Assembly (NCBI GenBank): GCA_947598155.1
Contig: CANQFC010000006.1
Coordinates: 1-64,000 of the forward strand
DNA from: an uncultured Clostridia bacterium
GTDB lineage: Bacteria; Bacillota; Clostridia; Oscillospirales; Acutalibacteraceae
Direction: 5' to 3'
DNA length: 64,000 nt
A model generated the notes under the pieces. It saw only the letters and a program-made list of their open reading frames with translations. It was not told the origin of the DNA and did not search any database. This document shows, in pieces, positions 12,086 to 28,787 of this stretch (position 1 is the stretch's first letter; every line of letters begins with the position of its first letter). Position numbers and translations under genes: made by a program.

Positions 12086-12908
12086 AAATCTCCTCCGCCC
12101 GTTTTAAAAGCTCCTTTTCGACAGCGAAAAAACCGTAATATCCAAAAGTACCCGCGCATTTCTCGCAGATAAAGGCATAATTGCCGTCCCGCGGCAAACC
12201 GTGCGCGTTTAAAAGCTCCTCCGCCTTTTCCAAATATCCGTTTATCGTCTTTTCCGACTCGTAAATTCCTTTTTCAGCCGATTCAAGATCCGCTAAATTG
12301 CAGTAGGTTATTGCCATTTCGCCCTCTCCGTTCGGCTTTTTCTCCATAATTTCCAGCGCTTTTAAGAAAAGCGAGCGCGACTCGTCATATTTTTGAAGAT
12401 TCATAAGGCAGATAGCCGTATTGTTGTAAAGTCCGCCTAACCGTTCGTCGTCGGCGTCCAAATAATTTTCGTAAATTTTCGCCGCCCGCCTGTAAAGCTG
12501 TAAGGCGTTTTCGTACTGTCCGAACGCGCAAAATCCGGTTGCGCAGTTCAAAAAGGTCGTACCCTTTGTGACGGTATTTTCAAAAGCCTCGTCTTTCGAC
12601 AATTCAAGACACATATTTATTGCCGAAAAGCACTGCTCTTTTTGACCGGTTTTGCGGTAAAGCCCGACTTTTTCATTGAGAATTGTCAGTTCGCCGCGAA
12701 TGTCCGAGCCGATTTTTGCCTCTTCGTGCCAATAATCAAGCGTTTTTTCGGCGGACGCATAGTCGTTCCGGCTGAAATATTCGTCAAGCTTTGCCAGCAC
12801 TCTGCCCACGGGAATGGGAACGACGCTTTGGTTTATATTCATTTTAAGAGGACAGCGGGGCTCCTCGTAATCCTCTTTTGAAACGGTAAAATCTTTTGTA
12901 TAGTCCAT
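12072..12908 (-). CDS. tetratricopeptide repeat protein
   Basis: 278 aa. Several TPR-type helix pairs can be read between about 45 and 235 (for example AEKTLDYWHEEAK, ALQLYRRAAKIYENYLDADD, LGGLYNNTAICLMNLQKYDESRSL split over two helices). No signal peptide. Probable protein-protein scaffold for the DUF4125 partner it overlaps by 14 bases. A ribosome site (GGAGAGC) precedes the ATG. The 150 bases upstream of it, to the ABC genes, hold no recognisable element. Confidence 0.8.
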   Translation of the reverse strand: MDYTKDFTVSKEDYEEPRCPLKMNINQSVVPIPVGRVLAKLDEYFSRNDYASAEKTLDYWHEEAKIGSDIRGELTILNEKVGLYRKTGQKEQCFSAINMCLELSKDEAFENTVTKGTTFLNCATGFCAFGQYENALQLYRRAAKIYENYLDADDERLGGLYNNTAICLMNLQKYDESRSLFLKALEIMEKKPNGEGEMAITYCNLADLESAEKGIYESEKTINGYLEKAEELLNAHGLPRDGNYAFICEKCAGTFGYYGFFAVEKELLKRAEEIYERT

Positions 12909-13062
12909 TTTAAGCTCTCCGAGTATTAAAATACTGCAACAAGCAACATTTAAAAACGCTCTTCGCTAAATACCGCGGGCGTCCGGCGGGCATCACAACG
13001 GATTTCACCCGCGCAGTTCATACTGCTTGCCGTCAATATGAGGGTAGGTAAGGCCGAGTTTA

Positions 13063-14964
13063 TTACGAAAGTTCAAACTGACCCGTGTAAAGCTGATAAT
13101 ATCTGCCTTTTTGCGAAATCAAGTCGTCGTGGTCGCCACGCTCAATAATTCTGCCGTTTTCAAGCACCATAATGGCGTTCGCGTTTCGGACGGTTGAAAG
13201 CCTGTGGGCGATAACAAACACTGTTCTGCCTGCCATCAGTTTATCCATACCCTGTTCAATAAGCTTTTCGGTTCGTGTGTCTATGGAGCTTGTCGCTTCG
13301 TCCAAAATCAGTACCGGCGGGTCTGAAACGGCGGCGCGGGCGATAGATAAAAGCTGCCTTTGCCCCTGCGAAAGGTTTCCGCCGTCGGAGCCGAGCACGG
13401 TGTCATAGCCTTTTGGGAGCGACATAATAAATTCGTGAGCGTTTGCAAGGCGCGCGGCGTTTTCAATTTGCTCGTCGGTCGCGTCAAGATTCCCGTAACG
13501 GATATTGTCCTTTACCGTGCCCGTAAACAAATGCGTATCCTGCAAAACCATACCCAAAGACCTGCGAAGGTCGTCTTTTTTTATCTTTTGAATGTTTATT
13601 CCGTCATATCTAATTTTGCCGTCGTTTATGTCATAAAAACGGTTGATAAGGTTTGTTATAGTTGTTTTTCCGGCGCCTGTCGAGCCGACAAAGGCTATTT
13701 TCTGACCGGGCTTTGCGTAAAGTGAAATGTCGTTCAGAACGGTTTTTTTGCCGTCATAAGAGAATGTGACGTTTTCAAACTCCACCTTGCCCAAAAGTTC
13801 TTTATATTCAACAGTGCCGTTCGCCTGATGAACGTGTTTCCACGCCCAGATTCCGGTGTGTTCGGGACACTCCGTAATAACTCCGTTCGCGTCTTTTTTC
13901 GCGTTTACAAGCGTTACATAGCCCTCGTCGGTTTCGGGCTGTTCATCAATGTATTCAAAAATTCTTTCTGCGCCCGCAATGGCCATAATCGCGTTGTTAA
14001 ACTGCTGAGAAAGGTTTGAGATGGGCTGTGAAAAGTTCTTTGAATTTGTCAGAAAGGCGATTATACTGCCGGGCGACATCGCGCCTTTGAGAGCAAGTAT
14101 TCCGCCTATTGCGGCAGTTATCGCGTAATTTACGTGCGACAGGTTGTTCATAAGAGGCATCAGAATGCTCGCAAAGGTATTTGCGCCTGTTGAGGCTTTG
14201 CGCAAATTTTCGTTTATATCGCCGAATCTTTTTATGGTTTCCTCCTCACGGTTAAACACCTTAACGACCTTTTGCCCCTCGATTATTTCTTCAATATAGC
14301 CGTTTACAATGCCCAAATCCTTTTGCTGTTTTTTGAAATAGTACGCGCTCTTTTTGCCGAGGAGCCTTGTGATGACTATCATAAGAGCGACCATAACTAT
14401 GACAAGAACAGTGAGAACGGGGCTGTAATAAAGCATTACGCAGAACGACCCTATAATTGTTATTGACGATGAAACAAGCTGTGAAAGCCCTTGGGAAAGA
14501 AACATTCTTACCGATTCAACGTCGTTAGTAAACCGGCTCATAATTTCGCCGTTAGGGCGCGTGTCGTAAAATTTTATCGGCAAATCCGAAACGGAATCGA
14601 ATATCTCCTTGCGGAAAAAATTCATCGTTCTTGCCGTAAGCAATACCGAACATTTCGCTTTTCCGTATGAAGCGGCAACGCTTATCACGCCGATTGCCGC
14701 TATAATTATGATGTAATTTTTAATTCCGCTGAAAAGCGAGAATGAAAATTTCTTCCCGACTGCCGGAATGAGCAAGTCGTCAACGATTGGCTGAATGAAA
14801 ACTGAAATTGCAACCGTTGCAAGGGAGCTTAAAATTACAAGCGCTATCATGGCAATGAGCAGTTTTTTCTGTTTGCCTAAATATTTTATAAGCCTTTTAA
14901 CCGTTGCGCCCATATCTTTGGGCTTTGCGGTCGGTATTTGATTTTTTCTGCCCGGTCCCGGCAT
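13063..14964 (-). CDS. ABC exporter half-transporter with intact ATP site
   Basis: 633 aa. Six-helix exporter domain (about 35-330) and a nucleotide-binding domain (about 390-633) with Walker A GSTGAGKT, signature LSQGQ, and Walker B LILDEATS with the catalytic Glu. An insert of about 45 residues (WAWKHVHQANG region) separates the two domains. It overlaps the partner gene by one base. Together they look like heterodimeric multidrug exporters such as LmrCD or BmrCD; this half carries the catalytically competent consensus residues. The cargo is unknown. Confidence 0.93.
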   Translation of the reverse strand: MPGPGRKNQIPTAKPKDMGATVKRLIKYLGKQKKLLIAMIALVILSSLATVAISVFIQPIVDDLLIPAVGKKFSFSLFSGIKNYIIIIAAIGVISVAASYGKAKCSVLLTARTMNFFRKEIFDSVSDLPIKFYDTRPNGEIMSRFTNDVESVRMFLSQGLSQLVSSSITIIGSFCVMLYYSPVLTVLVIVMVALMIVITRLLGKKSAYYFKKQQKDLGIVNGYIEEIIEGQKVVKVFNREEETIKRFGDINENLRKASTGANTFASILMPLMNNLSHVNYAITAAIGGILALKGAMSPGSIIAFLTNSKNFSQPISNLSQQFNNAIMAIAGAERIFEYIDEQPETDEGYVTLVNAKKDANGVITECPEHTGIWAWKHVHQANGTVEYKELLGKVEFENVTFSYDGKKTVLNDISLYAKPGQKIAFVGSTGAGKTTITNLINRFYDINDGKIRYDGINIQKIKKDDLRRSLGMVLQDTHLFTGTVKDNIRYGNLDATDEQIENAARLANAHEFIMSLPKGYDTVLGSDGGNLSQGQRQLLSIARAAVSDPPVLILDEATSSIDTRTEKLIEQGMDKLMAGRTVFVIAHRLSTVRNANAIMVLENGRIIERGDHDDLISQKGRYYQLYTGQFELS

Positions 14965-16733
14965 TACGACGCACCCCCTACTGAGTCAAAATCGTCACAG
15001 CCCTTTTGCTGGGCCTCATAAATATCTCTGTAAATTTCACTGCGGCTTAAAAGCTCTTCGTGCGTGCCTATATCCGAAATTGAGCCGCCGTCAAGAATTA
15101 TTATCTTGTCACAGTCCGAAACGGAAGAAATCCTTTGCGCTATAATAATTTTTGTGGTGTTCGGAGCAAGGCGCCGCAAAGAGGCGCGTATGCGGGCGTC
15201 CGTCGCCGTGTCAACGGCGCTTGTAGAGTCGTCGAGAATGAGTATTTTCGGCTTTTTCAGAATTGCTCTTGCTATGCAAAGACGCTGTTTTTGACCGCCC
15301 GAAACATTGACTCCGCCTTGGCCCAAATCTGTGTTGAATCCGTCGGGGAACGACTCGACAAACGAAAGAGCGTCTGCTATTTCGCAGGCGTTTTTCAGTT
15401 CCTCATCGGTTGCGTTCTTGTCGCCCCAGCGGAGATTATCGGCTATTGTGCCCGAGAAAAGGACATTTTTCTGAAGAACCATACTGACCGCCTCGCGAAG
15501 GCCATAAACGGAATAATCCTTGACGTTTTTTCCGCCGACAAGAACCTCACCGGAGGTAGCGTCGTAAAGTCTGGGAATTAACTGGACAAGCGAGGATTTT
15601 GAACTGCCCGTAGCGCCCATAATTCCCACCATTTCGCCGCTGTTAATCTTAAAGGAGACGTTTTTAATTACATCGGAGCCTTTGCCGTAACTGAATGAGA
15701 CGTTCTTAAACTCGATACTGCCGTCGGAAACGGTTTCCTCGGGGTTTTCAGGGTCTTTAATATCGGGAGTTTCATACAGAACTTCGCCTATACGCTTTGC
15801 GCTTGCCTCCGCCATAAAGACCTGAACCAAAATCATAATAGTAAAGAGGAATGACGTTAAAATCTGAAAAGCGTAAGTGAAAATCGCTGTAAATTCGCCG
15901 ACGTCAAGCGTTTGCTCCGCTATTGACTTTGTAGCTATGATAACGATTGCCGTAATGGTAAAGTACATAAGCAGTATAAGAGCGGGTTCGCCCAAAACCA
16001 TTATTTTTTCGGCGTGAATCGCCGCCGCTGTAAGCGCGTCGTTTGACTTTTTAAATTTTTCTTTTTCATAATCAGTGCGGACAAACGCTTTAACAACGCG
16101 GATATTCGTAAAATTCTCCTGAATTGAGGCGTTAAAGCCGTCGAATTTTTTGAGCATAGCTCTGAAACGCTTTATCGCGATGGGCGCGAAAATCGCAAGG
16201 AACAAAATTATAATCGGCAGTGCCACAGCGAAAACCTTGGCAATATCCGGACTTTTTCTTATACAGATAACGAGAGCCGTAATAAGCATTATCGGCGCGC
16301 GGAAAAAGCCTCTTACCAACATTAAAAACGTGTTCTGAACCGTGTTGACGTCGGTCGTCATTCTTGTGATGAGCGAAGCCGTTGAAAACCGGTCGATATT
16401 AGAGAACGAAAACGTCTGAATTTTTTCCATAAGCCCAAGGCGGAGCGACGCGCCGAATCCCATACCGGCTATGGAACCTATTCTTGCCGCCAACGACCCG
16501 CAAAAAAGCGAGCAGAGAGCTAAAATCAGCATTTTGCCGCCGTATAAAAAAATATCGTTGACGGCGGCGCTCTGCACGGCGGCGTCGGCCGTGTCGGTCA
16601 GTCGGATAGTCTCGACGATATTCGCCATAACCTGCGGAATAAGAAGCTCAAAAACAACCTCGCCTATCATTAAAACAGGGCAAAGAAACGCGTAGAATTT
16701 GTATTTATCGGCATATTTCAAAAGCTTAAACAT
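14964..16733 (-). CDS. ABC exporter half-transporter with degenerate ATP site
   Basis: 589 aa. Exporter membrane domain then ATPase domain with Walker A read as GATGSSKS, signature VSGGQ and Walker B LILDDSTS. The Glu after Walker B is Asp, which is typical of the degenerate site in heterodimeric exporters. Walker A has Ser in place of the third Gly (GxxGxGK), which is unusual. Upstream it overlaps the MarR gene by eight bases; downstream it overlaps the partner half by one base, so all three are translated from one message. Confidence 0.92.
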   Translation of the reverse strand: MFKLLKYADKYKFYAFLCPVLMIGEVVFELLIPQVMANIVETIRLTDTADAAVQSAAVNDIFLYGGKMLILALCSLFCGSLAARIGSIAGMGFGASLRLGLMEKIQTFSFSNIDRFSTASLITRMTTDVNTVQNTFLMLVRGFFRAPIMLITALVICIRKSPDIAKVFAVALPIIILFLAIFAPIAIKRFRAMLKKFDGFNASIQENFTNIRVVKAFVRTDYEKEKFKKSNDALTAAAIHAEKIMVLGEPALILLMYFTITAIVIIATKSIAEQTLDVGEFTAIFTYAFQILTSFLFTIMILVQVFMAEASAKRIGEVLYETPDIKDPENPEETVSDGSIEFKNVSFSYGKGSDVIKNVSFKINSGEMVGIMGATGSSKSSLVQLIPRLYDATSGEVLVGGKNVKDYSVYGLREAVSMVLQKNVLFSGTIADNLRWGDKNATDEELKNACEIADALSFVESFPDGFNTDLGQGGVNVSGGQKQRLCIARAILKKPKILILDDSTSAVDTATDARIRASLRRLAPNTTKIIIAQRISSVSDCDKIIILDGGSISDIGTHEELLSRSEIYRDIYEAQQKGCDDFDSVGGAS

Positions 16734-17217
16734 CTTTTTCCTCCTTTGGTTTCAATATTGAACGTTTGCTTTTTTCAGGAAAACTCTCCGAAAGATTATC
16801 GGACATTTTTCTGATTACGGACAGCATAAGAGATATTTCTTCCTGAGAAAGACCTGAAATTTTTGCGCTGTCAACATCGTTAAAGGTCTGTCTTGCAAAT
16901 CTTTCAAGCTCTGCGCCCTTTTCGGTCAAAGAGAGGTTATTGCGGCGCGCGTCATCTTTATCCGTTTCCCGGGAAATAATGCCCGCTTTTTCCATTCGTT
17001 TAACGGATACCGCCACGGACGCCGGCGAAATGTTGAGCGAATCCGCAATATCTTTTTGCGTGGCGTTAGGGTTTTTGCTTAAAAAGCATAAAATCGGCGG
17101 CTGACCGAAATAAATGCCTTTTTCCTCAAGCAGACGGTCAATAATATATCTCTCGCTGATATTCAGAAAATGAAGCATATTGCAAAGCTCTTTTTCACTG
17201 TCTTTCATATTTTCCAT
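16726..17217 (-). CDS. MarR family transcriptional regulator
   Basis: 163 aa. Winged-helix repressor that probably controls the exporter pair downstream. HTH region NATQKDIADSLNISPASVAVSVKRMEKAG is split over recognition helices near residues 55-85, followed by the wing DKDDARRNNLSLTEKG. Start taken at ATG 17217, because GAGG lies seven bases upstream; an extended frame to 17268 would run over the operator and promoter. The first gene of the exporter operon, with a consensus promoter and a palindromic operator upstream suggesting autoregulation. Confidence 0.92.
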   Translation of the reverse strand: MENMKDSEKELCNMLHFLNISERYIIDRLLEEKGIYFGQPPILCFLSKNPNATQKDIADSLNISPASVAVSVKRMEKAGIISRETDKDDARRNNLSLTEKGAELERFARQTFNDVDSAKISGLSQEEISLMLSVIRKMSDNLSESFPEKSKRSILKPKEEKDV

Positions 17218-17245
17218 ACACTGCCTCAAAAAAATAATTAGCCAT

Positions 17246-17294
17246 TTAACTGTTAATCGCTTAACCATTATATCACCGAAAATTTATATGTCAA
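17246..17294 (-). promoter_or_regulatory. marR-exporter promoter with overlapping operator
   Basis: Minus strand TTGACA (17289-17294), 16-base spacer, TATAAT (17267-17272). Immediately after the -10 lie two overlapping inverted repeats: GTTAA-GCGA-TTAAC (17252-17265) and TTAAC-A-GTTAA (17246-17256), placed over the transcription start. Their size and position fit a MarR dimer blocking RNA polymerase. Confidence 0.8.
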
Positions 17295-17449
17295 TAGTAT
17301 AAGTAAAAATTACATATTATGACGTGGCGAGCCCCTTATTAAACGGAAATTTCGCATCACTTTAGACTTTTTTTAACTAAAGACGACGGAATTTTCAGGT
17401 TTTGCGAAAATAAATCGTTTGTTTGCGCTGTTTATGGGAGGTGAATTTT

Positions 17450-17827
17450 ATGGGACGCGTTGAGCTGTGGCCAGAGGGCGAATATTACCTGCGAATACCG
17501 AAACGGCTTTTTGAGGGCGAAGAAGGCCGAAATATGTCGGTTTATGCAAAACTGCTTTACGGTATTTTACTTGATGCAACTGAGATTTCCCGAAAAAACG
17601 GATGTTTTGACGAGAGCGGCGAAATTTTTGTGTATTACAGCGTTCAGAATGCCGCGCGGATTTTGGGATGCTGTAAGGAAAAGGCAATAAAAACATTTCG
17701 CGAGCTTGAAAGCCTAAGGCTTGTTACACGGGTCAAAAAGGGGAACGGCAGGCAGGATATGATTTACGTTCGCCCGCTTAAAACAACGTCAAAGCCCTTT
17801 GCGGGCGGGGGCTGTAAATTCGGTTGA
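17450..17827 (+). CDS. RepA_N-like winged-helix protein
   Basis: 125 aa. Matches the N-terminal domain of RepA_N replication initiators: YYLRIPKRLF, YAKLLYGILLDATEISRKNG, FDESGEIFVYYSVQNAARILGC, then a winged-helix strand KTFRELESLRLVTRVKKG. The C-terminal part of true plasmid initiators is absent, as in many phage or mobile-element versions. Start at ATG 17450, with GGGAGGTGA in front. First gene of the phage-head cassette; 48 bases before the small terminase gene. Role: possibly origin binding or regulation of the cassette. Confidence 0.75.
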   Translation: MGRVELWPEGEYYLRIPKRLFEGEEGRNMSVYAKLLYGILLDATEISRKNGCFDESGEIFVYYSVQNAARILGCCKEKAIKTFRELESLRLVTRVKKGNGRQDMIYVRPLKTTSKPFAGGGCKFG

Positions 17828-17875
17828 CACAGTTTGCGGGTTAAAAATTTTACTTCTCTAAAAAAGGAGGCAGAT

Positions 17876-18346
17876 ATGGGCAAAAATCTTACGAAAAAGG
17901 AAGCGGAATTTTGCTGTCTTGCCGCCGTTCTCGGAAACGGCGCCGAGGCGGCATACAAGGCGGGATTTACGGTTTTTCCGCAAAAGCGCGCGGAAAAACT
18001 GCTTAGAAAAAAACAAATCTCGGATGAAATCGAAAAAATCAAAGAGAGGAATGCAAAATCAAAAGCCGCGCTCACGGGAATACGCAGAATTGCATTCGGC
18101 TCGGTTGCCGACGCGGTGAATTTAGCCGTAAATTTCGGAGAAAACATAGATACGCATTCGCTTGATCTGTTTGCCGTGTCGGAAATCAAATACACCGCAG
18201 GCAAGAGCGTCGAAATCAAGTTTTACGACAGACTGAAAGCTCTTGAACGGCTCGCGGAGATGGAATCCGCCGAGGAAAACGCGGAAGCTATGTCGATTTA
18301 TGAGGCAATCTCCAACAGTGCAAGGCAGGCCGATACATATGAATAA
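17876..18346 (+). CDS. phage terminase small subunit
   Basis: 156 aa. DNA-recognition subunit of the packaging motor, terminase_2/XtmA-like. N-terminal LTKKEAEFCCLAAVLGNGAEAAYKAGF is a helix-turn-helix of the family (split over two helices, residues 5-31), followed by a coiled region and a core ending in KFYDRLKALERLAEM. Start at ATG 17876 with AAAGGAGG upstream; an earlier in-frame ATG at 17834 lacks a site. Its stop overlaps the large terminase start by eight bases. Confidence 0.85.
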   Translation: MGKNLTKKEAEFCCLAAVLGNGAEAAYKAGFTVFPQKRAEKLLRKKQISDEIEKIKERNAKSKAALTGIRRIAFGSVADAVNLAVNFGENIDTHSLDLFAVSEIKYTAGKSVEIKFYDRLKALERLAEMESAEENAEAMSIYEAISNSARQADTYE

Positions 18347-19619
18347 GGAGTTCGTACCGTTTTCACCTAAGCAAATGCAGGTGCTTAATTGGTGGTGCGA
18401 GGAGAGCGCGTATAAAGACAAAATCGGAATAATATGCGACGGCGCCGTAAGAAGCGGTAAAACGCTTTGTATGACGCTCTCGTTTGTATTGTGGGCGTTT
18501 TACAGGTTTTCGGATTCCGACTTTGCAATTTGCGGGAAAACAATAACGTCGCTCAGGAGAAACGTCATCACGCCTATTATACCTGTGCTTTGCGGTATGG
18601 GCTTTTCGGTGACGCAGAAACTGAGCGCGAATGTAATTTATATTTCCTTTGGAGGGCGGAGCAACAGATTTTATCTTTTCGGCGGACGCGACGAAAGCTC
18701 GTCGTCGCTTATACAGGGCATTACGCTTGCGGGGGTTATGCTTGACGAGGTCGCTCTTATGCCGAAATCGTTTACACAGCAGGCCATAGCGCGTTGCTCC
18801 GTTGACGGCTCAAAGCTTTGGTTTAACTGCAATCCCGAAAATCCTCAGCACTGGTTTTACAGGGAGTGGATAAAAAAGCGCGATGAAAAAAACTGTCTTT
18901 ACCTGCATTTTCTTATGAGCGACAACCCGTCTTTGACGGACGAGATACGCGAGCGCTATGAAAAGCTGTACTCCGGCGTGTTTTATGAGAGGTTTATTGA
19001 GGGCAAATGGGTCTGCACGGAGGGTCTTGTATATCCGTTCTTTAAAGTCGGCGTTCACACTTATTCGGGTGAAAAGAGGGGCTTTTCACAGTATTATATT
19101 TCGTGCGATTACGGCACGGTGAACCCCTGTTCAATGGGGCTTTGGGGCGAAAAAGACGGCGTGTGGTACAGAATGTCGGAGTTTTACCACGATTCAAGGG
19201 CGCGCGGATTCCAAATGACCGATTCCGAATATTATGAGGCGCTCTGTACGCTTGCGGGCGGCAGAAAAATCACCGCCGTAATAGTCGACCCCTCCGCCGC
19301 GTCTTTTATAGAATGTATCCGCAGAGGCGCAAGGTTCAAAGTGATACCGGCAAAAAACGACGTTTCCTACGGAATACGCAAGGTGTCTGAATCCTTAAAA
19401 AGCGGAAAAATAAAAATTCACGACTCATGCGCAGATTCAATCCGTGAATTTTCTCTTTACCGCTGGGACGAGAACGCAGGCAAGGACGCTCCAAAAAAGG
19501 AAAACGACCACGCTATGGACGATATACGCTATTTTGTAACGACGCAAAAAAATTGCGGAGAAGGATTTTTTGCCCTATCCGCTCCGAGAACAGAAAGGAG
19601 AATAAATGAGCGTATTTGA
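18339..19619 (+). CDS. phage terminase large subunit
   Basis: 426 aa, full length for the PBSX/XtmB type. ATP-driven DNA translocase and nuclease that fills the capsid. Walker A GAVRSGKT (K41), Walker B VMLDE (D136-E137), coupling motif FNCNPENP, and nuclease-domain aspartates in ISCDYGT and AVIVDPSAAS with a late acidic HAMDDIRY. All expected motifs are present, so the protein looks functional. Start at ATG 18339, overlapping the small subunit; portal gene begins 14 bases before its stop. Confidence 0.92.
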   Translation: MNKEFVPFSPKQMQVLNWWCEESAYKDKIGIICDGAVRSGKTLCMTLSFVLWAFYRFSDSDFAICGKTITSLRRNVITPIIPVLCGMGFSVTQKLSANVIYISFGGRSNRFYLFGGRDESSSSLIQGITLAGVMLDEVALMPKSFTQQAIARCSVDGSKLWFNCNPENPQHWFYREWIKKRDEKNCLYLHFLMSDNPSLTDEIRERYEKLYSGVFYERFIEGKWVCTEGLVYPFFKVGVHTYSGEKRGFSQYYISCDYGTVNPCSMGLWGEKDGVWYRMSEFYHDSRARGFQMTDSEYYEALCTLAGGRKITAVIVDPSAASFIECIRRGARFKVIPAKNDVSYGIRKVSESLKSGKIKIHDSCADSIREFSLYRWDENAGKDAPKKENDHAMDDIRYFVTTQKNCGEGFFALSAPRTERRINERI

Positions 19620-20748
19620 TAAAATCACAAAAAGAGGCTCGCCGGTTAAGGCGGCGCAGACTGTTTCGGCGGATTTGACCGGCGGAGTCGCCGCTTTTAC
19701 CGGAGCGGGACTTACGCCAGGACTTTACAGGGAGCTTCGTGAAAACGTGCCTATAATCGGCGCCGCAATAAACAAAACGGTACGCCTTACCGGCGGATTT
19801 ACCGTTCGGGCAAACAACGCAAAATACCAAAAGGCGCTGGACGTATTTCAAAATAAAATTCCCGTCGGCGCGGGGCGGTGCGGCTTACAGCTTTTTACGG
19901 ACACATATTTTACGGAGCTTTTAACTTACGGCACAACGGCAGGAGAAATAATTTTAGACGAAAACGGAGAAATTCATTCGCTTTACAACGTTCCCGTAAA
20001 AAATATTGTATTAAAGCGCAGTACTGAAGATTTTAACAGAGTTCTTATCTGCCGCCCAAATTCTGTTTTGGGCGAGCCGGTAAAATTTCAGGACCTTGTT
20101 TTTTACACGGCGTTAAATCCCGACGCGGGTGAGATTTTCGGAAACTCCATACTCAAGGGTCTGCCGTTCGTAAGCGATATACTTATGAAAATATACTCGT
20201 CAATCGGAAAAAATTTCGAGAGAATGGGAAACCTGCGATTCGCCGTCACCTATAACCCCGGAAACGACATAATTGACCGCAGCTTTGCAAAGGAGCGCGC
20301 CGAGCAAATTGCCGCCGAATGGTCAAATGCAATAAACAGCCGTGATGTGCGGGATTTTGTAGCGGTCGGCGACGTCAATATAAAGGTAATAGGGGCGGAT
20401 AATAAAATTATAGACAGCGAAATACCGGTTAAGCAAATGCTGGAACAAATTCTCGCAAAACTGTCATTGCCGCCGTTTATGCTCGGCCTTTCGTGGTCAA
20501 CCACGGAGCGAATGAGTTCGCAGCAGGCGGACGCTCTTACGACAGAGCTTTGGAGCTACCGCAGAGTTTTGACGTCGGTTATCGAGAAAATTTGCGATAT
20601 GTATTTGCGCACGCAGGGCAACAGCGACGGCGTTACGGTAGTTTGGGACGACATCACCTTGCAGGACGCCCTTGACGAAGCGAGAGCAAAGCTCTACTCG
20701 GCGCAGGCGAGAGCATTGGAAGCCAATATCGCAGGCAGTAAAACGTGA
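19606..20748 (+). CDS. phage portal protein
   Basis: 380 aa. Would form the dodecameric ring at one capsid vertex through which DNA enters. Similar in layout to SPP1/HK97-like portals: N-terminal region, a wing/stem segment around GNSILKGLPFVSDILMKIY, the helix-rich PPFMLGLSWSTTERMSSQQ block and a C-terminal helical crown. It is shorter than many (400-500 aa), but start, end and reading frame are intact. Overlaps terminase by 14 bases; GAAAGGAG before the ATG. Confidence 0.85.
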   Translation: MSVFDKITKRGSPVKAAQTVSADLTGGVAAFTGAGLTPGLYRELRENVPIIGAAINKTVRLTGGFTVRANNAKYQKALDVFQNKIPVGAGRCGLQLFTDTYFTELLTYGTTAGEIILDENGEIHSLYNVPVKNIVLKRSTEDFNRVLICRPNSVLGEPVKFQDLVFYTALNPDAGEIFGNSILKGLPFVSDILMKIYSSIGKNFERMGNLRFAVTYNPGNDIIDRSFAKERAEQIAAEWSNAINSRDVRDFVAVGDVNIKVIGADNKIIDSEIPVKQMLEQILAKLSLPPFMLGLSWSTTERMSSQQADALTTELWSYRRVLTSVIEKICDMYLRTQGNSDGVTVVWDDITLQDALDEARAKLYSAQARALEANIAGSKT

Positions 20749-20760
20749 GGAGGTGAAAAT

Positions 20761-21648
20761 ATGGTAAAAAAATTTGACGCGCAGCCTTTGGGCTCAAAAG
20801 TGTCGGAGGAGGATTTGGAGCTTATTAACCGACTGAGCCTTAAAGAGCTTACGGCGGACGATGTCTTTGTATTTTCCGTAATACTTTGCGACAACGACAT
20901 TGACCGTGATTTTGAGGTTTTTTCGGATGAAGCGCTTTCCTCTCTGCAAAAATTGTTTATAGGCAAAACGGGGATTTTAAACCACAGCAACCGCTCCGAG
21001 GACCAAATTTGCAGGACTTACAAAACGGAGCTAATTTGCGGCGACGGAAGAACAACCGAATACGGCGCGGGGTACAAATACATAAAGGCTTGGTGTTACA
21101 CGGTAAGGAGCGCCAAAAACGATGATTTGATTAAGGATATAGAAAGCGGAATCAAAAAAGAGGTCAGCGTTTCGTGCAATTTTTCCGAAAAGGTTTGCTC
21201 GATTTGCGGCGAGAGCAACTGCGCTCACAAGGCGGGCAGCTTTTACGGAGATACGCTCTGCTTTAAGTACATCAACGGCGTTACTGACGCTTACGAATGG
21301 TCGTTCGTGGCGGTTCCCGCGCAGAGAAACGCCGGCGTTACAAAGGCGTCTTGTCAAAAGCGGGACACTCATTCCGAAATTCAAAGAGCAAAAGCAGAAA
21401 AAGAGACGAGCTTTGCTCTGCAATACAGAAACGAGATGAAATCCCGCGCCGAAAAGGGATTTGCCATGCTTTTCCCGGAGCTTTCGTCAAAAACAGCAGA
21501 AAGCATAATCAATCTTTGCAATGCGGATATTCTTTCAGAGCTTGTTAAATGCTTTGAAAGGAAAACCGCCAAGCTTTTCCCTATAAAATCACAGTTTGGG
21601 GAAAACGAAACGGACAAAAACAATGCAAACAGTCAATTCAAATTTTAG
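20761..21648 (+). CDS. phage prohead protease, XkdF-like
   Basis: 295 aa. N-terminal protease domain about 35-200: FSVILCDNDIDRDFEVF, GILNHSNR (probable catalytic H75) and KKEVSVSC (probable catalytic S136), as in HK97/XkdF-type capsid maturation proteases. A CxxC-x4-CxH insertion (C146, C149, C154, H156) may bind zinc. The C-terminal part, with charged helical segments, may act as scaffold. Ribosome site GAGGAGGTG. Located between portal and capsid, the standard place. Confidence 0.8.
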   Translation: MVKKFDAQPLGSKVSEEDLELINRLSLKELTADDVFVFSVILCDNDIDRDFEVFSDEALSSLQKLFIGKTGILNHSNRSEDQICRTYKTELICGDGRTTEYGAGYKYIKAWCYTVRSAKNDDLIKDIESGIKKEVSVSCNFSEKVCSICGESNCAHKAGSFYGDTLCFKYINGVTDAYEWSFVAVPAQRNAGVTKASCQKRDTHSEIQRAKAEKETSFALQYRNEMKSRAEKGFAMLFPELSSKTAESIINLCNADILSELVKCFERKTAKLFPIKSQFGENETDKNNANSQFKF

Positions 21649-21660
21649 GAGGTAAAAAAT

Positions 21661-22683
21661 ATGGCTGCATTTGAAACAATTAAACTTGATAAGGGACTTT
21701 ACCGTTCGGCTTTGGGCATTAACGCCGAGCTTGAACGCATTGACCCGTCTGAAAATTACAAGGGCACCGCCCTTGAAGGGCTTGACGCATTTGAGCGTCA
21801 GCTTAAACGATTTGACATTAAAATTAAAGGGGCGTCGTCTTCTCCCATAGAAAAATTCTTCCAGACGTCTGATTCGGCAGTGCTTTTCCCGGAATACGTC
21901 AGCAGAACGGTAAGGCAGGGAATGCAGGATTTGTGCGGCGCTGAGGCGATTACGGCAACTTGCACCGACATAAACGGACTCGATTACAGAACAATATCCT
22001 ATCTTCCCGAGAAAACGCTTACAGAAGAGGCAAAGGATGAATTTATTGCCGAGGGCGGAACCATTCCCGAAATGAAGATTAAGACAAAGGATAATCTTGT
22101 CAAGCTTCACAAGAGAGGCAAAATGATAGTTGCGTCTTACGAGGCTCTGCGCTTTCAGCGCCTTGACGTATTTTCGGTAGCGCTCAAAGAAATCGGCGCC
22201 TACCTTGCGCGCCTTCAGATGAGCGACGCTATCAAAACAATTTGCGAAGGCGACGGCAACAGCAATCCCGCAAAAGGCATATCGCCTAAAGCGGCAGGCG
22301 CTTTGGAATACGCCGATTTGGTTGAGCTTTGGAAATCGCTTCAGCCGTATGCGATGAACGCGTTAGTCGTTTCTCCCGAAATCGCGGCAAAGATTATGAG
22401 CCTTCCCGAAATGCGCGACGCTGCCGCGGGACTCAATTTCCACGCAACCGGCAAAGCGGTAACGCCGCTCGGAGCAAAACTTATTTGCAGCAGTAAAACC
22501 GACAATACAATTTTGGCGCTTGACAAGAATTATGCGCTTGAAATGGTGACTGCCGGCGGAATCGTAACGGATTTTGATAAGCTTATCGATCGCCAGCTCG
22601 AAAGAGCCGCCGTTACGCATACATACGGTTTTGCGAAAATTTGCGACGACGCTTCCGTTTATATGAATTTAGGTGATAATTGA
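21661..22683 (+). CDS. phage major capsid protein, HK97 fold
   Basis: 340 aa. Forms the icosahedral shell. N-terminal part with a charged helical segment (about 25-60), then TSDSAVLFPEYVSRTVRQGM, ATCTDINGLDYRTISYLPE, KLHKRGKMIVASYEALRFQ, and DALKTICEGDGN-like A-domain helices, ending with a capsid-like A domain KICDDASVYMNLG. No stop or frameshift. Strong AGGAGG site before the ATG. The next gene starts at the overlapping TGATG. Confidence 0.85.
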   Translation: MAAFETIKLDKGLYRSALGINAELERIDPSENYKGTALEGLDAFERQLKRFDIKIKGASSSPIEKFFQTSDSAVLFPEYVSRTVRQGMQDLCGAEAITATCTDINGLDYRTISYLPEKTLTEEAKDEFIAEGGTIPEMKIKTKDNLVKLHKRGKMIVASYEALRFQRLDVFSVALKEIGAYLARLQMSDAIKTICEGDGNSNPAKGISPKAAGALEYADLVELWKSLQPYAMNALVVSPEIAAKIMSLPEMRDAAAGLNFHATGKAVTPLGAKLICSSKTDNTILALDKNYALEMVTAGGIVTDFDKLIDRQLERAAVTHTYGFAKICDDASVYMNLGDN

Positions 22684-23042
22684 TGATAAGCTCGCAGGCT
22701 GTTTTTGACGAGGTAAAACGGCTTTTGGACTTTCCGGAGGAGGACGCCGAGAAAATCACCCGTATTTGCGAGTTTTCGGCGGAAACCCTTTCAAAAAGGC
22801 TCAGAGAAAAATATACGGGAGAAGAGAGCGAGGCGGTCTATGCGGCGGCGGCGTTCGCGGCATACCGTTATTCGCTTTTTAAAAGCTGTGTTGACGATAA
22901 CTGCGACTATATAAAAACGGGCGATATTACGGTTCGGCGTTCGGCTTCGTCTTATGTTGAAGCAACGGAAAAGCTGCTTGCCGACGCTTTTTCGGCGGCA
23001 GAATGTTTTACCGATATAGGCTTTATCTTTAAGGGCTTTTAA
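22683..23042 (+). CDS. probable head-tail connector protein
   Basis: 119 aa. All-alpha layout with alternating helices and the position after the capsid gene fit a gp6/XkdG-H type head-completion or connector protein. Start taken at ATG 22683, in the TGATG overlap with the capsid stop. Sequence identity to a named family is not recognised by eye, so the call rests mostly on order and size. Confidence 0.6.
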   Translation: MISSQAVFDEVKRLLDFPEEDAEKITRICEFSAETLSKRLREKYTGEESEAVYAAAAFAAYRYSLFKSCVDDNCDYIKTGDITVRRSASSYVEATEKLLADAFSAAECFTDIGFIFKGF

Positions 23043-23065
23043 AAGCTTCGGAAAGGAAACGGAAG

Positions 23066-23407
23066 ATGACGTTAAACGGAATATTTAAACACGGCAGAAC
23101 GTGCTATGTGAGCTTGCCCGGCGTTTGGAACAGCGAACGTTTTAAAGCTCATATTCAGCCCATTCGTTATAAGACAAAGTTATATTTAGAAGGCGATTAC
23201 ACGGAAATAGGCATTAACAAAAACGATGTTTATCTCTATCTCGGCCCTGCGAACCACGACCTTACGCGGCTTCAGGGAAACGCGAGAATCGTTGACGGCG
23301 ACGGCGCGCTTTATAAAATAGACAGAAGCGAAAGGGTTCTGTTCGGCGACGAGTGCATATATATTTGGGCTGTAATACGAAAAACTACGGAAAAGCACGT
23401 TCCGTAA
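23066..23407 (+). CDS. probable phage head-completion protein
   Basis: 113 aa, beta-rich (RTCYVSLPGVW, YLYLGPANHDL, YIWAVIRKT). Size and position match the second connector or stopper protein of SPP1-like heads. GGAAAGGAAA ribosome site before ATG. Not assigned to a family by eye. Confidence 0.55.
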   Translation: MTLNGIFKHGRTCYVSLPGVWNSERFKAHIQPIRYKTKLYLEGDYTEIGINKNDVYLYLGPANHDLTRLQGNARIVDGDGALYKIDRSERVLFGDECIYIWAVIRKTTEKHVP

Positions 23408-23443
23408 ACCGCTATTTTAAAATATTTAAAGAAAGGAGACGCT

Positions 23444-23480
23444 CCGCGCGGCCCAACGCTTAGGTTAACCGCGCACGCGG
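23444..23480 (+). promoter_or_regulatory. GC-rich hairpin between ribosome site and start
   Basis: A good Shine-Dalgarno GAAAGGAGA (23431-23439) is separated from the ATG at 23497 by a GC-rich inverted repeat (GCGCGG 23446-23451 with CCGCGC 23469-23474). A second, weaker site AAAAGG lies just before the ATG. Confidence 0.4.
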
Positions 23481-23496
23481 GCAAAAGGTAAAATAT

Positions 23497-23967
23497 ATGA
23501 ATTTGTGCAGTAATTACTGTGATTTAATTCTTGAAGAGCTTTCTTCACACAGCTCCGAAATGAAAGTCGTTCTTGCCCATGAAAGCTATATAAAAGAGGT
23601 TCCGTTAAACGAAACCATTGCGGCAGTGGGAATAAAAAAGTGCGTTATTTCGGATATGCCTGATGAAAAGACTGATGAAAACGTTAAGGTTCAAACGAAG
23701 GTAAGAACCATTTTAGTTACTGTCGGAATAAATTTTTATGTGCCGTACGAAAAGGGCACAAGAGGGTGCGTCAGCGCTTTTGACAAAGTGTTCAGCACGC
23801 TTATAGGAAGCAACGAATACAGCCTTTGCGAGGCAAAGCTTCTCGGCACTAAATACTCACGCGAAACGCAAAGCCTTATAGCTGAAACGGAATTTGTATT
23901 TGAAAGCTTTTATTCGGGTCTGATAGAAGGCCCTCCGTACATAGAATCCGGCAAATCGGGCGGTTAA
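23497..23967 (+). CDS. probable phage head-tail joining protein
   Basis: 156 aa. Alpha/beta protein with VQTKVRTILVTVGINFYVPYEKG and FDKVFSTLIGS blocks; size and order match the tail-terminator/neck protein (XkdI/gp17-like) that closes the head cassette in SPP1- or PBSX-type phages. It is the last phage gene; no tail tube, tape measure or baseplate gene follows. Confidence 0.5.
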   Translation: MNLCSNYCDLILEELSSHSSEMKVVLAHESYIKEVPLNETIAAVGIKKCVISDMPDEKTDENVKVQTKVRTILVTVGINFYVPYEKGTRGCVSAFDKVFSTLIGSNEYSLCEAKLLGTKYSRETQSLIAETEFVFESFYSGLIEGPPYIESGKSGG

Positions 23968-23987
23968 AACAATAAAACATTTGATTT

Positions 23988-24020
23988 TTGAGCGGCGGAA
24001 ACGCCGCTCTTTTTTCGCAT
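23988..24020 (+). terminator. terminator of the phage-head cassette
   Basis: GAGCGGCG-GAAA-CGCCGCTC followed by six T. A strong Rho-independent terminator about 20 bases after the last phage gene, which closes the cassette as its own transcription unit. Confidence 0.88.
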
Positions 24021-24114
24021 TTTGATTCCTGATTTTCAAATTTTGATTTTTAGGATTTGGCCGTTTTGCGCCGCTTTTCATTCGGCATTATTGTCATAAT
24101 AGGTCAAATTTTGT

Positions 24115-24160
24115 AACAAACTGCACAAAAGACTATAACGAATTTTGTGTGCAGTTTGAT
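24115..24160. promoter_or_regulatory. inverted repeat upstream of glgB
   Basis: CAAACTGCACAAAA (about 24118-24131) and TTTTGTG-TGCAGTTTG (about 24144-24159) form a near-perfect stem with a two-base bulge. It ends 20 bases before the glgB -35. Could be an operator for a sugar-responsive regulator or a second terminator; the rest of 24020-24115 is AT-rich with no gene. Confidence 0.45.
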
Positions 24161-24179
24161 TATTTTGTTCAAAAATCTA

Positions 24180-24208
24180 TTGAAAATTCGTTTCTGACGT
24201 GTTAGAAT
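24180..24208 (+). promoter_or_regulatory. promoter of the glycogen cluster
   Basis: TTGAAA (24180-24185), 17-base spacer, TAGAAT (24203-24208). Transcription would begin near 24216, so the in-frame TTG at 24223 is too close to be a likely start and ATG 24277 is preferred for glgB. Confidence 0.7.
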
Positions 24209-24276
24209 AAACTTGTATAATTTTGGCAAGGAAAAGCCGAATTGAGCTTTTTCGCGCCGGAAAGGCAACAAAAAAG

Positions 24277-26190
24277 ATGAAAGAAAACAAAACCAAAGTC
24301 AACGCGGTTAAAAACGCGGATACAAACGAGGTTCCCGTTTATCTTTTCCATCAGGGCAGTAATGCCCGCGCGTATGAGTTTTTCGGCTCGCACAGAAAAA
24401 GCGACGGTTCAGTCGTTTTCAGAGTTTGGGCTCCGAACGCTAAAAGCGTGTCCGTTGCAGGCGATTTTAACGGCTGGTCCGACAGCGCAAACGTTATGTC
24501 GAAAATCTCCGACGGGGGAATTTGGGAATGTGAAATAGAGGGCGTAAATGTATATGACGCTTATAAATATTCAATTTTAACACAGTCGGGCGACAGGCTG
24601 ATGAAAAGCGACCCGTACGGTTTTCATATGGAAACAAGACCGCATAACGCCACAAAATTTTATGAGCTTGACGGATATAAATGGAGAGACGCAAAGTGGG
24701 AGGAGAAGAAAAAAACAACATCTTCCTACGCAAGGCCCTTAAATATTTATGAGGTGCATTTAGGCTCGTGGAAACAGCACGGCGACGGCAATTTTCTGTC
24801 ATATCGGCAAATGGCCGATGAATTAGTGCCTTACGTTAAAGAAATGGGGTACACTCACGTTGAATTTATGCCGCTTACCGAATATCCGTTTGACGGCTCG
24901 TGGGGGTATCAGGTCACGGGGTATTTTGCCGCGACGTCGCGCTACGGCACTCCGCACGATTTAATGTATCTTATCGACTCGTTCCACAAGGCGGGAATCG
25001 GCGTAATTCTTGACTGGGTGCCCGCGCATTTCCCGAAAGACGCAAATGGTCTTTATGAGTTTGACGGAACGTGCGTTTATGAATATGCCGACCCCAAAAA
25101 GGGCGAGCATTACGGCTGGGGAACAAGAGTTTTTGATTTCGGCAAAAATGAGGTCAGGAGCTTTTTGTACTCAAGTGCGATGTTCTGGCTGGACAAATTC
25201 CACATAGACGGGCTTCGCATTGACGCCGTCGCCTCAATGCTTTACCTAAATTACGACCGCAAAGACGGCGAGTGGATAGCCAACAAAAACGGCGGAATTG
25301 AAAATTTGGAGGCGGTTGAATTTTTTCACAAGCTGTCCGAGCTCTTGTTCCGAGATTACCCAGGCGCTTTGATGATAGCGGAGGAGAGCACCGCTTGGCC
25401 TATGGTGACAAAACCTGTCTTTATGGGCGGGCTCGGCTTTAATTTCAAATGGAATATGGGCTGGATGAACGACATACTTCGGTATTTCTCGCTTGACGGA
25501 ATTTACCGAAAGAGCAATCACGGCTGTATAACATTTTCGTTCTTCTACGCTTTTTCGGAGAATTTTATTCTGCCCATTTCGCATGACGAGGTGGTTCACG
25601 GCAAATGCTCGCTGATAAACAAAATGCCTGGAACCTACGAGGAAAAATTTGCGGGCGTAAGGGCGTTCCTCGGCTATATGATGGCGCATCCGGGCAAAAA
25701 GCTTTTGTTTATGGGCAGTGAATTCGGTCAATTTATTGAGTGGAACTATCAGCAGGGGCTTGATTGGCTTTTGCTTGATTACGATATGCACCGCAAGCTG
25801 CAGTCATATACAAAAGAGCTAAACAATTTTTACAAAAAAAATCCCCCGCTTTGGCAGGTGGACTACTCTTGGGAGGGCTTTTCGTGGATTTCGTCCGACG
25901 ACTGCGACAATTCCGTTATCGCTTTCCGCAGAATAGATGAGAGCGGCAAAGAGATTATAGCCGTCGGCAACTTTACGAATGTCCGCCGCGAAAATTACAG
26001 AATCGGCGTGCCGAAAGCGAGCGCTTATAAAATCGTATTCAATTCCGACGATGAAAAATACGGCGGTTTCGGCGTTTCGCGCAACCCGGAAAAAATCAAA
26101 ACGGAGAAAATCCCAATGCACGGGTTTGACAAAAGCATAAGCCTTGACCTGCCGCCGATGTCCGTAATTTACCTTAAAAAGACGAAGTAA
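24277..26190 (+). CDS. glgB: 1,4-alpha-glucan branching enzyme
   Basis: About 637 aa from ATG 24277. Introduces alpha-1,6 branches into glycogen. CBM48 domain first ([20 protein letters not shown]), then the GH13 barrel with [11 protein letters not shown] (nucleophile Asp), [11 protein letters not shown] (acid/base Glu) and [10 protein letters not shown] (transition-state Asp), and an all-beta C-terminus. The first gene of glgB-glgC-glgD-glgA. A TTG 18 codons upstream also keeps the frame but sits at the predicted transcription start. Confidence 0.95.
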
Positions 26191-26294
26191 AAAGTCGGAG
26201 ACAGCAGCGTAAATAATTTTCGTCCGTCTGAATCTTTGCGGTTTTAGGCAAAGGCGCTCGGGCAGAAATTCAGATATTTTTAGGAGGAAAAAAT

Positions 26295-27512
26295 ATGGCT
26301 CGTAAAAAAGAGTGTATTGCGATGCTTCTTGCAGGCGGTCAGGGAAGCCGTCTGGGCGTACTTACAAAGAACATCGCAAAGCCTGCCGTACCCTACGGCG
26401 GGAAATACAGAATTATTGACTTCCCGCTTTCAAACTGTGTAAATTCCGGCATCAACACAGTGGGTGTTTTGACTCAATATCAACCGCTGGAGCTTAACGA
26501 TTACATAGGCAACGGTCAGGCGTGGGATTTGGACCGCATTGACGGCGGAGTTCATATGCTTTCGCCGTACCAGCAGATTAAGGGTATGGAGTGGTATAAG
26601 GGAACGGCAAACGCCATCTACCAAAACATCAATTTTATCGACCGTTATAATCCGGAGTATGTCGCCGTGCTTTCGGGCGACCATATTTACAAAATGGATT
26701 ACAACAAGATGCTCGATTACCACAAAAAGAACAACGCGGCATGCACCATAGCTATGCTTGAGGTTCCGTGGGAGGAGGCGTCGCGTTTCGGTCTGATGAT
26801 TCTCAATGATGACAATTCAATCTCCGAATTTGAGGAAAAACCGAAAAATCCCCGTAGCAACAAAGCGTCGATGGGCGTTTATATATTCACATGGTCAAAG
26901 CTCAGGCAGTATCTTATTGACGATGAGAATAATCCCGAATCCTCCAACGACTTCGGTAAGGACGTTATTCCCGCTATGCATAAAGCAGGCGAAAGAATGT
27001 TTGCGTATCTGTTTGACGGGTACTGGAAGGACGTCGGCACAATCGATTCCCTTTGGGAGGCTAATCTTGATTTGCTTAATCCTAAGGTTGACCTTGATTT
27101 GTCGGACGCATCATGGAAAATCTATTCAAGAACGCCTACAACGCCGCCGCAGTATATTTCCGCAACGGCGGATATTCAGAATTCAATGGTTTCCGAGGGC
27201 TCAAGAGTTTTCGGGGAGGTTGATTATTCAATCCTGTTCCACGATGTAACGGTTGAAGAGGGCGCAAAGGTGCGCTATTCAATAGTTATGCCGGGAGCGG
27301 TTGTCAAGAAAGGCGCATATGTTGAATATTCAATTGTCGCCGAGGACGCCGTTATTGAATCCGGCGCAAAAGTAGGCGCCAGCCCGGAGGACTATACAGA
27401 CCGCGGCGAATGGGGTATTGCGGTTGTCGGCGCGGGCGTTACAGTCGGCGAGGGCGCTTGTGTCGCGCCTAAGACAATGATTTCGGAAAACATTTCAAAG
27501 GAGGGCAAGTGA
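26295..27512 (+). CDS. glgC: glucose-1-phosphate adenylyltransferase catalytic subunit
   Basis: 405 aa. Makes ADP-glucose from glucose 1-phosphate and ATP. N-terminal nucleotidyltransferase [13 protein letters not shown] with [39 protein letters not shown] and [11 protein letters not shown]-terminal left-handed beta helix with [13 protein letters not shown]-type hexapeptides. AGGAGG ribosome site. One base separates it from glgD. Confidence 0.97.
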
Positions 27513-27513
27513 T

Positions 27514-28629
27514 ATGACCGGGCAGAATATTGTCGGAATCGTTTTTTCAAACGCTTATGACGAGTGTTTACCTGAAATTACGGGACTTCGCACAATGGGC
27601 TCCGTTCCTTTCGCGGGCAGATACCGTCTTATTGACTTTGCGCTTTCAAATATGGTAAACGCGGACATTGAAAAGGTCGGCGTTATAACAAAGTCAAACT
27701 ATCAGTCGCTTATGGACCACCTCGGTACGGGCAAGCCTTGGGATTTGTCGAGGAAAACCGAGGGAATGTTCCTTCTTCCGCCTTTTTCAACGGCAGAGCA
27801 AGGGAGCAACGTTGATAAAATCGCGTCTTTAAAAGGCGCTATGGGATTTATAAACCGTTCAAACGAGGAGTATGTTTTATTTGCCGACTGCAACACCGTG
27901 TTCAACGCGGACGTGCGTGAAATTATGAATTTCCACACGGAAAAAGCGGCGGATATAACAATTCTGTACAAGCACGGCAATTCGCCGGCGCTTCACGACG
28001 CTATGATTATGGAGGTCGGAGAAGACGGCAGAGTAAACAAGGTTTTATTTTCCCCTGCCGGCGCCGAGGACGTAAACTATTCGCTCAATATGATTTTGAT
28101 GAAAAAGAGCCTGCTTGAAAGGCTTATGAATGAGGCAATCAGCCAGAATTTAACCGATTTTGAGTCTGATATTATTCAGAAAAACGTTGACAAGCTCAAA
28201 ATTTACGGCCTTGAATTTAACGATTACGCCGTAACGATTGACTCAATGGCGTCATATTTTAAGGCGAATATGAGCCTTTTGGAGCCGCAAAACTGCTTGA
28301 ATTTATTTAATTCCGAGCGCCCTGTTTACACAAAGCTCAAAGACGATATGCCCGCGACCTACGGTATAGGCTCCGACGTTAAAAATTCGCTTATAGCCAA
28401 CGGCTGTATTATTGACGGCGAGGTTGAAAACTCAATTATATTCCGCGGCGTCAGAATAGAAAAGGGCGCAATCGTCAAAGATTCAATTGTAATGCAGGAT
28501 ACGTATATTGCGCAAAACGCGATGATTAACTGCGTTATAACCGATAAAAATGTTGTCGTAACGCCGAATAAAACTCTTTCCGGCGCTGAAAATTATCCCG
28601 TTTACATAGGCAAAGGCATTGTTATTTAA
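27514..28629 (+). CDS. glgD: GlgD, regulatory subunit of ADP-glucose pyrophosphorylase
   Basis: 371 aa. GlgC paralogue known in Firmicutes to assemble with GlgC and boost its activity while being poorly catalytic itself. The N-terminal GGxGxRL loop is lost (reads VFSNAYDECLPEITGLRTMG), while PFAGRYRLIDFALSNMVNA and the C-terminal beta-helix hexapeptides remain. The glgC stop and glgD start are one base apart, so expression is coupled. Confidence 0.94.
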   Translation: MTGQNIVGIVFSNAYDECLPEITGLRTMGSVPFAGRYRLIDFALSNMVNADIEKVGVITKSNYQSLMDHLGTGKPWDLSRKTEGMFLLPPFSTAEQGSNVDKIASLKGAMGFINRSNEEYVLFADCNTVFNADVREIMNFHTEKAADITILYKHGNSPALHDAMIMEVGEDGRVNKVLFSPAGAEDVNYSLNMILMKKSLLERLMNEAISQNLTDFESDIIQKNVDKLKIYGLEFNDYAVTIDSMASYFKANMSLLEPQNCLNLFNSERPVYTKLKDDMPATYGIGSDVKNSLIANGCIIDGEVENSIIFRGVRIEKGAIVKDSIVMQDTYIAQNAMINCVITDKNVVVTPNKTLSGAENYPVYIGKGIVI

Positions 28630-28642
28630 AACAGTGTGAATT

Positions 28643-28783
28643 TTAATAAGGGGCTTGCCCCGTCATTAAATGTGGCAAGGCGCGGTGCAAACCGCGCTGA
28701 GGAATCGGTGAAGATTAAATCCCCCACTGATTAAGAAAATGAAACCCGCCTCAGGAGGCGGGGACATCTCTTGCTTAAATTAC
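28643..28783 (+). repeat. dispersed intergenic repeat, copy 4
   Basis: AATAAGGGGCTTGCCCCGTC start, GCGGTGCAAACCGC centre, AACCCGCCTCAGGAGGCGGG and ACATCTCTTGCTTAAATTA end. It lies inside the glycogen cluster, between glgD and glgA. Confidence 0.8.
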
Positions 28784-28787
28784 AAAG

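Follow-up and report, generated by a model that had tools for sequence, protein, structure and literature searches.

The 64,000-nucleotide stretch analysed here (the window; contig CANQFC010000006.1 of an uncultured Clostridia bacterium) carries, at positions 17450–23967, nine open frames in succession on the + strand that include the terminase, portal and capsid genes of a tailed phage. We propose that these genes probably represent an ancient and inherited, phage-derived head and packaging operon of the bacterial order, resembling a gene transfer agent (GTA) and tail-less in this genome. Since a single inherited copy is combined with selection and an intact motor, the operon would be a host-serving packaging system like a GTA. 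The same features, namely single copy, co-inheritance with the host, purifying selection and invariant terminase residues, strongly support the "domesticated DNA-packaging system" of an initial annotation of this DNA. According to an excerpt of PMC9662315 that lists the attributes of GTAs, these elements derive from tailed phages; this origin is seen here in the terminase, portal and capsid families and in tailed relatives with the same head.

In the mechanism that we envisage, the operon would make capsids, and the terminase would fill them with DNA. The packaged DNA would presumably be that of the host, because the locus lacks replication and integration genes of its own, the local RepA_N-like gene aside. 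The ancestor would have possessed a short contractile tail (sheath, tube, baseplate and fibre), whose parts may have been lost stepwise and repeatedly, leaving head and neck in the genus of the window. Particles would presumably be released by lysis and benefit kin cells.

A conserved single-copy unit inherited with its hosts

The conserved unit comprises eight genes: TerS, TerL, portal, g5, capsid, g7, g8 and g9. A TerL homologue was found in 32 of 35 same-genus relatives. Twenty-three of these 32 regions continue past the neck and, together with the window, are neck-only; the other nine end at contig ends. The initial annotation had reasoned that a full prophage at this site in relatives, or a cassette limited to one strain under relaxed selection, would point to mere decay. 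Within the genus, none of the 23 loci with downstream room has a tail gene after the neck, and the cassette is widespread with low dN/dS (the ratio of nonsynonymous to synonymous substitution rates). TerL, portal, capsid, g7, g8 and g9 span their models in all 24 genus loci (window included), with g7 and g8 also keeping their place in the gene order, and TerS and g5 do so in 23 and 22 of them, respectively; the in-frame stops met in the genus alignments fall close to the C termini of TerL and g9. The RepA_N-like identity first given to g1 is confirmed by PF06970, and its membership of the unit is not, as a homologue occurs in 2 of the 32 same-genus regions. The same cassette recurs in relatives, and the same flanks do so in part: in the 32 regions, which are of unequal length, the ABC genes were present in 18, MarR in 13 and glgB in 13.

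As is listed for GTAs in PMC9662315, inheritance is mostly vertical, and the operon has co-diversified with its hosts. The portal gave a single match each in 112 of 200 genomes of the family (79 of 135 genera) and in 70 of 394 genomes of the order (41 of 168 genera). Of 302 loci, 80 were kept, with Eubacterium coprostanoligenes, Clostridium sporosphaeroides and Faecalispora jeddahensis among the named carriers (loci L111 and L206 are one genome; G, C, L and f are our handles for genomes, contigs, loci and families). Two of these are available in culture: E. coprostanoligenes ATCC 51222 has a baseplate and lacks the tube, and C. sporosphaeroides DSM 1294 has both. RpoB was obtained for 26 of the 30 genomes asked, and its tree had 13 of 23 splits in common with a TerL+portal+capsid tree, compared with a mean of 0.3 and a maximum of 2 in 1000 label shuffles. 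Zero conflict was observed among the 12 strongly supported splits per side, and the distances were correlated at Mantel r 0.72, a value as high being reached in 0 of 2000 permutations.

Selection was evaluated as dN/dS by the NG86 method against the closest relatives, with some pairs saturated. TerL was among the slowest genes (0.06–0.07), and values of 0.04–0.08 were obtained for TerS (0.27 for a 31-residue fragment), 0.06–0.13 for the portal, 0.04–0.15 for g5, 0.13–0.20 for the capsid and 0.07–0.09 for g7 and g8 (0.28 for g7 versus G005); g1 gave 0.2–0.3. Among the flanking genes, ABC showed 0.07, MarR 0.16 and GlgB/GlgC 0.04–0.08. The head genes, mostly at 0.04–0.2 and near the ABC flank, are thus under purifying selection. 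Moreover, TerL residues G31, R34–K37, D132, E133, D253, D313, D386 and D390 do not vary across the 276 rows that have 380 residues or more; 65 of these rows are neck-only, and certain genomes enter twice, once under a name and once without one. We read them as the ATPase and nuclease residues, in line with the terminase motifs noted initially.

The nine frames are all open on the + strand, as first described, and family profiles uphold both terminase subunits, the portal and the capsid (Table 1). The closing terminator was likewise recovered as a hairpin. Judged by eye, the starts of TerL and g7 lie within or abut the preceding gene, and the ribosome sites are not all strong, contrary to the claim of a good site at every gene. 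The GC content of the cassette is not distinct from that of the flanks. As evidenced by His75 and Ser136, conserved in 21 aligned rows, and by gene order, g5 is a putative prohead protease; its earlier designation is backed by these features and not by a named family. An invariant Cys/His cluster is inserted in this protease-like protein, and an NxQF-like C-terminal tail is largely conserved. Family profile searches with g7–g9 yielded no informative match, and g5, g7, g8 and g9 matched no phage protein among solved-structure profiles; the roles proposed for g7–g9 accordingly follow gene order. The nine nearest flanking proteins are of host types (DUF4037, TPR, two ABC exporter halves and MarR upstream; GlgB and three glycogen enzymes downstream). 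None belongs to an integrase or phage family, the integrase scan being confined to 11141–30272, which agrees with the host flanks described at the outset.

Table 1. Features of the operon in the window
Feature	Position	Strand	Basis
5' leader position, hairpin degenerate	17381..17446	+	aligned with relatives' leaders; fold z +0.88
g1, RepA_N / DnaD-like N-terminal domain, lineage-specific	17450..17827	+	PF06970 1e-20; phrog_7882
g2, small terminase TerS	17876..18346	+	Terminase_2 PF03592; phrog_51
g3, large terminase TerL	18339..19619	+	phrog_2 2e-48
g4, portal	19606..20748	+	phrog_30703 3e-118
g5, protease/scaffold-like, Cys/His cluster	20761..21648	+	phrog_16951 (library: function unknown); role inferred
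g6, major capsid protein	21661..22683	+	Phage_capsid_4 PF25209; phrog_3922
g7, neck protein, adaptor by position	22683..23042	+	role inferred
g8, neck protein, stopper by position	23066..23407	+	role inferred
g9, neck/tail-terminator-like by position	23497..23967	+	role inferred; fused to fibre domain or tube in some relatives
terminator-like hairpin	23990..24009	+	8 pairs, then six T

Some further loci deserve mention. One same-genus genome (G019) has two additional TerL relatives, at 54% identity, elsewhere (G019:C27 and G019:C34; L230 and L231), with no further genes of the operon in the stretches read. The record MT835508 was considered as a parent phage and rejected, as it is a chromosomal contig (ribosomal, secY and Rnf genes by eye); it is ~88% identical to the same-genus genome G006 and carries the same neck-only operon. 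Its entry (L195, MT835508.1) is labelled Bacteriophage sp. from human faeces, and may reflect contamination or packaged host DNA. Sheath-bearing contigs of the viral collection were also considered as free phages; judged by the operons and not by the flanks of the viral contigs, this was disfavoured, since same-type operons lie on long contigs of other families' genomes as well.

Graded tail content among relatives

The architectures of relatives were determined by clustering 80 named loci and then iterating our own hidden Markov models on the same loci with a simple frame finder. Among 100 family loci, fetched from the 112 with a portal and including 7 that end at contig ends, 5 have sheath, tube and baseplate, 35 tube and baseplate, and 15 a baseplate without tube. 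A further 17 have g9 fused to a fibre domain and no baseplate, and 17 are neck-only (g9 is present in 13 and has no match in 4); 2 loci have tube, LysM and hub, and 2 have the tube alone. Sheath identity was drawn from phrog_279 and PF17482/PF04984 and that of baseplate J from PF04865; the fibre was named from weak phage-tail matches and position, and the tube (phrog_27038, function unknown) by position. In twelve of the tube and baseplate loci, a single frame contains the tube along with g9 (8 loci) or g8 (4 loci). These are possible neck-tube fusions, g8::tube in L280, L287, L302 and L304, and g9::tube in L284, L292, L293, L310, L311, L312, L316 and L326. From other families, 20 of 35 loci were examined: sheath, tube and baseplate J were present in 11, a sheath before the contig end in 2, and the remainder end at the hub (5), the LysM protein (1) or g9 (1).

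Among the sheath-less tube loci, the tube-LysM gap is at most 215 bp in all those listed except L288 (649), so small that no tape measure fits. The sheath-bearing loci (L263, L289, L296, L297, L071 and others) show a gap of -99 to 1382 bp, with little room for a tape measure. One locus (L321, in G182) has no terminase match before the portal, and a leader at 3429 lies ~50 bases before the portal frame; this may be a loss of the motor, or the terminase may be elsewhere.

On a 123-row tree from a quick LG+G4 search, in which change counts carry no direction, the five tail classes need 21 changes (shuffled mean 64.3). The neck-only state accounts for 7 changes, at least 6 of them forced by starred branches, and the fibre fusion for 3, at least 2 of them forced. 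Rows with a sheath are scattered and sit near the base, and in family f14 the full tail set is present at 8 of 9 loci; for these reasons we read the full tail as ancestral. Because relatives outside the genus have a short contractile tail, or remnants of one, in the same operon, the tail-less state would be a derived end point.

A leader hairpin and possible dispersed loci

Upstream of the operon in many loci lies a leader whose hairpin has a GUUGC/GCAAC core and which also contains a U-tract and UAURGGUGA. In 11 rows, 10 of 13 pairs show changes on both sides, and the covariation score of 0.60 was reached by 0 of 500 shuffles, with slid structures attaining at most 0.37; the 11 rows, from which our model R1 was built, had been picked for the hairpin and the UAURGGUGA motif, so that this covariation is biased to the hairpin. 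Independent support is provided by R1 matching operon starts outside its training rows. At E < 0.01 it placed a leader at the operon start in 25 of the 100 family loci, 9 of which had served as training rows (L297 is borderline), and in 54 further sources it matched 8 loci (2 training rows; 4 of family f26). The matches span all five tail classes; L357 has one extra match that does not lie at the operon start. A search of Rfam yielded nothing credible for the leader.

With E up to 0.05, R1 identified 32 further leader copies in 24 genomes (reverse-strand duplicates not counted), 23 of which were inspected; the stretch listed for L442 was truncated. Eight of the 23 immediately precede phage-type genes on the same strand. 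In the neck-only genome G127, the leader at L446 is followed by a fibre-like gene, an amidase endolysin and a PF05105 holin (cassette at L446:953–3676); the fibre call is our own, its sole match being weak and without a name. At L434 (leader 5194–5260, - strand) it precedes holin-like genes and a GH25 endolysin, and at L451 a tail fibre. The other genes following a leader are DnaD-like (L444, and L445 named by likeness to it), DUF6291 (L448) and DUF4417 (L452, and L449 named by likeness to it). A holin search added L462:461–1983, with GH25, a holin and a leader match at E 0.001. The lysis cassettes of L446, L434 and L462 stand by themselves. Since the same leader stands before the head operon and before separate lysis or fibre genes in several relatives, the system there looks multi-locus and commonly controlled. 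Possibly, the leader is attenuator-like and coordinates the heads with remote lysis or fibre genes in some relatives. Full endogenization, often at several loci, is a further attribute in the excerpted PMC9662315 list; here a single fixed copy has no integrase next to it, and second loci with the same leader occur in some relatives, whereas none was found in the window's genome.

A broader scenario, which we offer tentatively and rate at somewhat less than an even chance, is that an order-wide GTA lineage underwent parallel dismantling of its contractile tail by way of fibre-neck and tube-neck fusions, reaching the neck-only state six times or more. Neck-only particles would still package DNA, and in some members of the order a shared attenuator-type RNA leader would coordinate the heads with lysis or fibre genes at remote loci. 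The outcome would be a DNA-carrying particle of tailed-phage descent that functions without a tail.

Competing explanations and comparison with known systems

Several observations weigh against a GTA-like system, which is proposed here from its genes. Many dS values exceed 1, and NG86 values of this kind are rough; g9 evolves faster (dN/dS 0.15–0.36), and a TerL match is lacking in 3 of 35 genus relatives (G016, G018 and G031). The window's leader can be aligned and folds no better than shuffles, and R1 found neither a match at this leader nor another copy in the window's genome. Fifteen of the 23 inspected extra copies precede no phage-type gene. Genome G473 holds nine of the 32 (L434–L442), one of them before lysis genes, for which reason its leader element may be a dispersed repeat. 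Relocation of the tail genes within the window's genome was considered and not borne out: baseplate J, hub and family-type fibre were not found. Among the 32 relatives of the same genus, baseplate J occurred in one (G013, 9% contaminated); all 10 of 10 tailed controls had it. The family-type fibre was absent from 25 same-genus genomes (own included) and 16 other neck-only genomes, and present in 7 of 7 fusion genomes and 8 of 8 controls; the model also fails to detect the fibre-like gene that G127 has at a remote locus (L446), hence this negative covers the family type. The hub was absent from the 25 same-genus genomes, 12 other neck-only and 7 fusion genomes, and present in 8 of 8 controls. 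A PF05105 holin was found in 7 of 36 genomes, that of the window not among them, and ComEC, being present in 36 of 36, is uninformative as a sign of competence.

In other genera, baseplate J matches at other loci, mostly weak and strong in G138, were obtained in 5 of 16 neck-only genomes and in 2 of 17 genomes with the fusion, which runs against a simple picture. Weak baseplate J matches were noted in large frames of ~1000 aa (G125:C24:4650–7452, G063:C72:20091–23114, G238:C3:52692–55501 and G156:C2:68968–69126), in three genomes beside a ~720 aa frame; the operons of all these genomes are neck-only. Perhaps these frames belong to another contractile injection system.

The strongest alternative, in our view an unlikely one, is a repurposed shell that serves as a compartment or decoy within the cell, or in interference with infecting phages by titrating their parts, DNA transfer not being its task. 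It would account for the lack of tail and lysis genes at the locus, the searches of the rest of the window's genome having found none either, and for the erosion of the neck in the 4 of 17 neck-only family loci without a g9 match. A shell alone, however, needs no motor, and the ATPase and nuclease residues are kept in all TerL rows of a gene that is among the slowest. We consider it improbable that the operon is a capsid-forming satellite or helper-dependent element that makes its own heads and borrows tails from infecting phages. Head and neck without a tail are what capsid-forming islands possess, and the neck proteins could dock a foreign tail; yet the one copy per genome, the congruence with the host tree and the presence, in relatives, of tail genes within the operon itself all argue otherwise. 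Neither integration genes nor signs of mobility, as expected of a satellite, were seen among the nearest flanking proteins, and the "satellite" of the initial annotation is not supported.

A tailocin-like or lysis-coupled killing particle of the PBSX kind, which would not be a DNA vehicle, is very improbable. Tailed relatives keep the baseplate and a PBSX-like gene order, and remote lysis genes stand under the same leader in some genomes, but neck-only lineages lose exactly the killing parts and keep the packaging parts. Least probable of all is a prophage remnant that is decaying and persists by chance, for although tail, lysis and regulatory genes are gone and 3 of 35 genus relatives have no TerL match, neither relaxed selection nor broken genes were found, and full-length frames, invariant catalytic residues and persistence across the order speak against it.

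If the GTA-like interpretation is correct, a gut-associated order has a co-inherited DNA-packaging system, and its genes become candidates for the capsid-packaged host DNA of faecal viromes, where, according to an excerpt of PMC12946183, the operon is not identified for several taxa with packaged host DNA. The graded series would be a natural experiment on which tail parts are dispensable. Neck-only species make tail-free movement of capsid DNA between cells testable, and the leader offers a way to locate scattered genes of this kind of system. Among the matches listed in searches of an open-licence library, several of these lists being capped, there was no paper on this operon; a close one is PMC12946183.

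Among known systems, capsid-forming phage-inducible islands have head genes without tail genes and are mobile, whereas no mobility gene was seen beside the window operon. PBSX of Bacillus subtilis has tape measure, tail and lysis genes in one island. The tailed relatives resemble it in gene order, sequences not compared, with terminase, portal, capsid, neck, sheath, tube, LysM protein, hub, baseplate J and fibre, and the window operon differs from it in consisting of head and neck only. PBSX is called GTA-like in the excerpt of PMC12946183, which also reports experimental GTA-like packaging in related gut families and describes FpGTA I/II of Faecalibacterium. There, a head operon (TerS, TerL, portal, scaffold and capsid) and a separate second operon, which holds baseplate, fibre, receptor-binding and lysis genes, give ~40 nm particles in which a tail is not visible. 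The likeness to our operon, compared by description and not by sequence, lies in the gene set of the head operon; FpGTA I, however, has ten genes in 10.5 kb as opposed to eight conserved genes in ~6.1 kb here, and no second operon was found in the window's genome. In the excerpt of PMC9662315, GTAs package mostly random host DNA, have a head too small for their own genome and deliver the packaged DNA to other cells. The GTA of Rhodobacter capsulatus (RcGTA) and other viriforms described there resemble our system in vertical inheritance, selected head genes and dispersed loci; RcGTA differs in its unrelated hosts and in its tailed particles.

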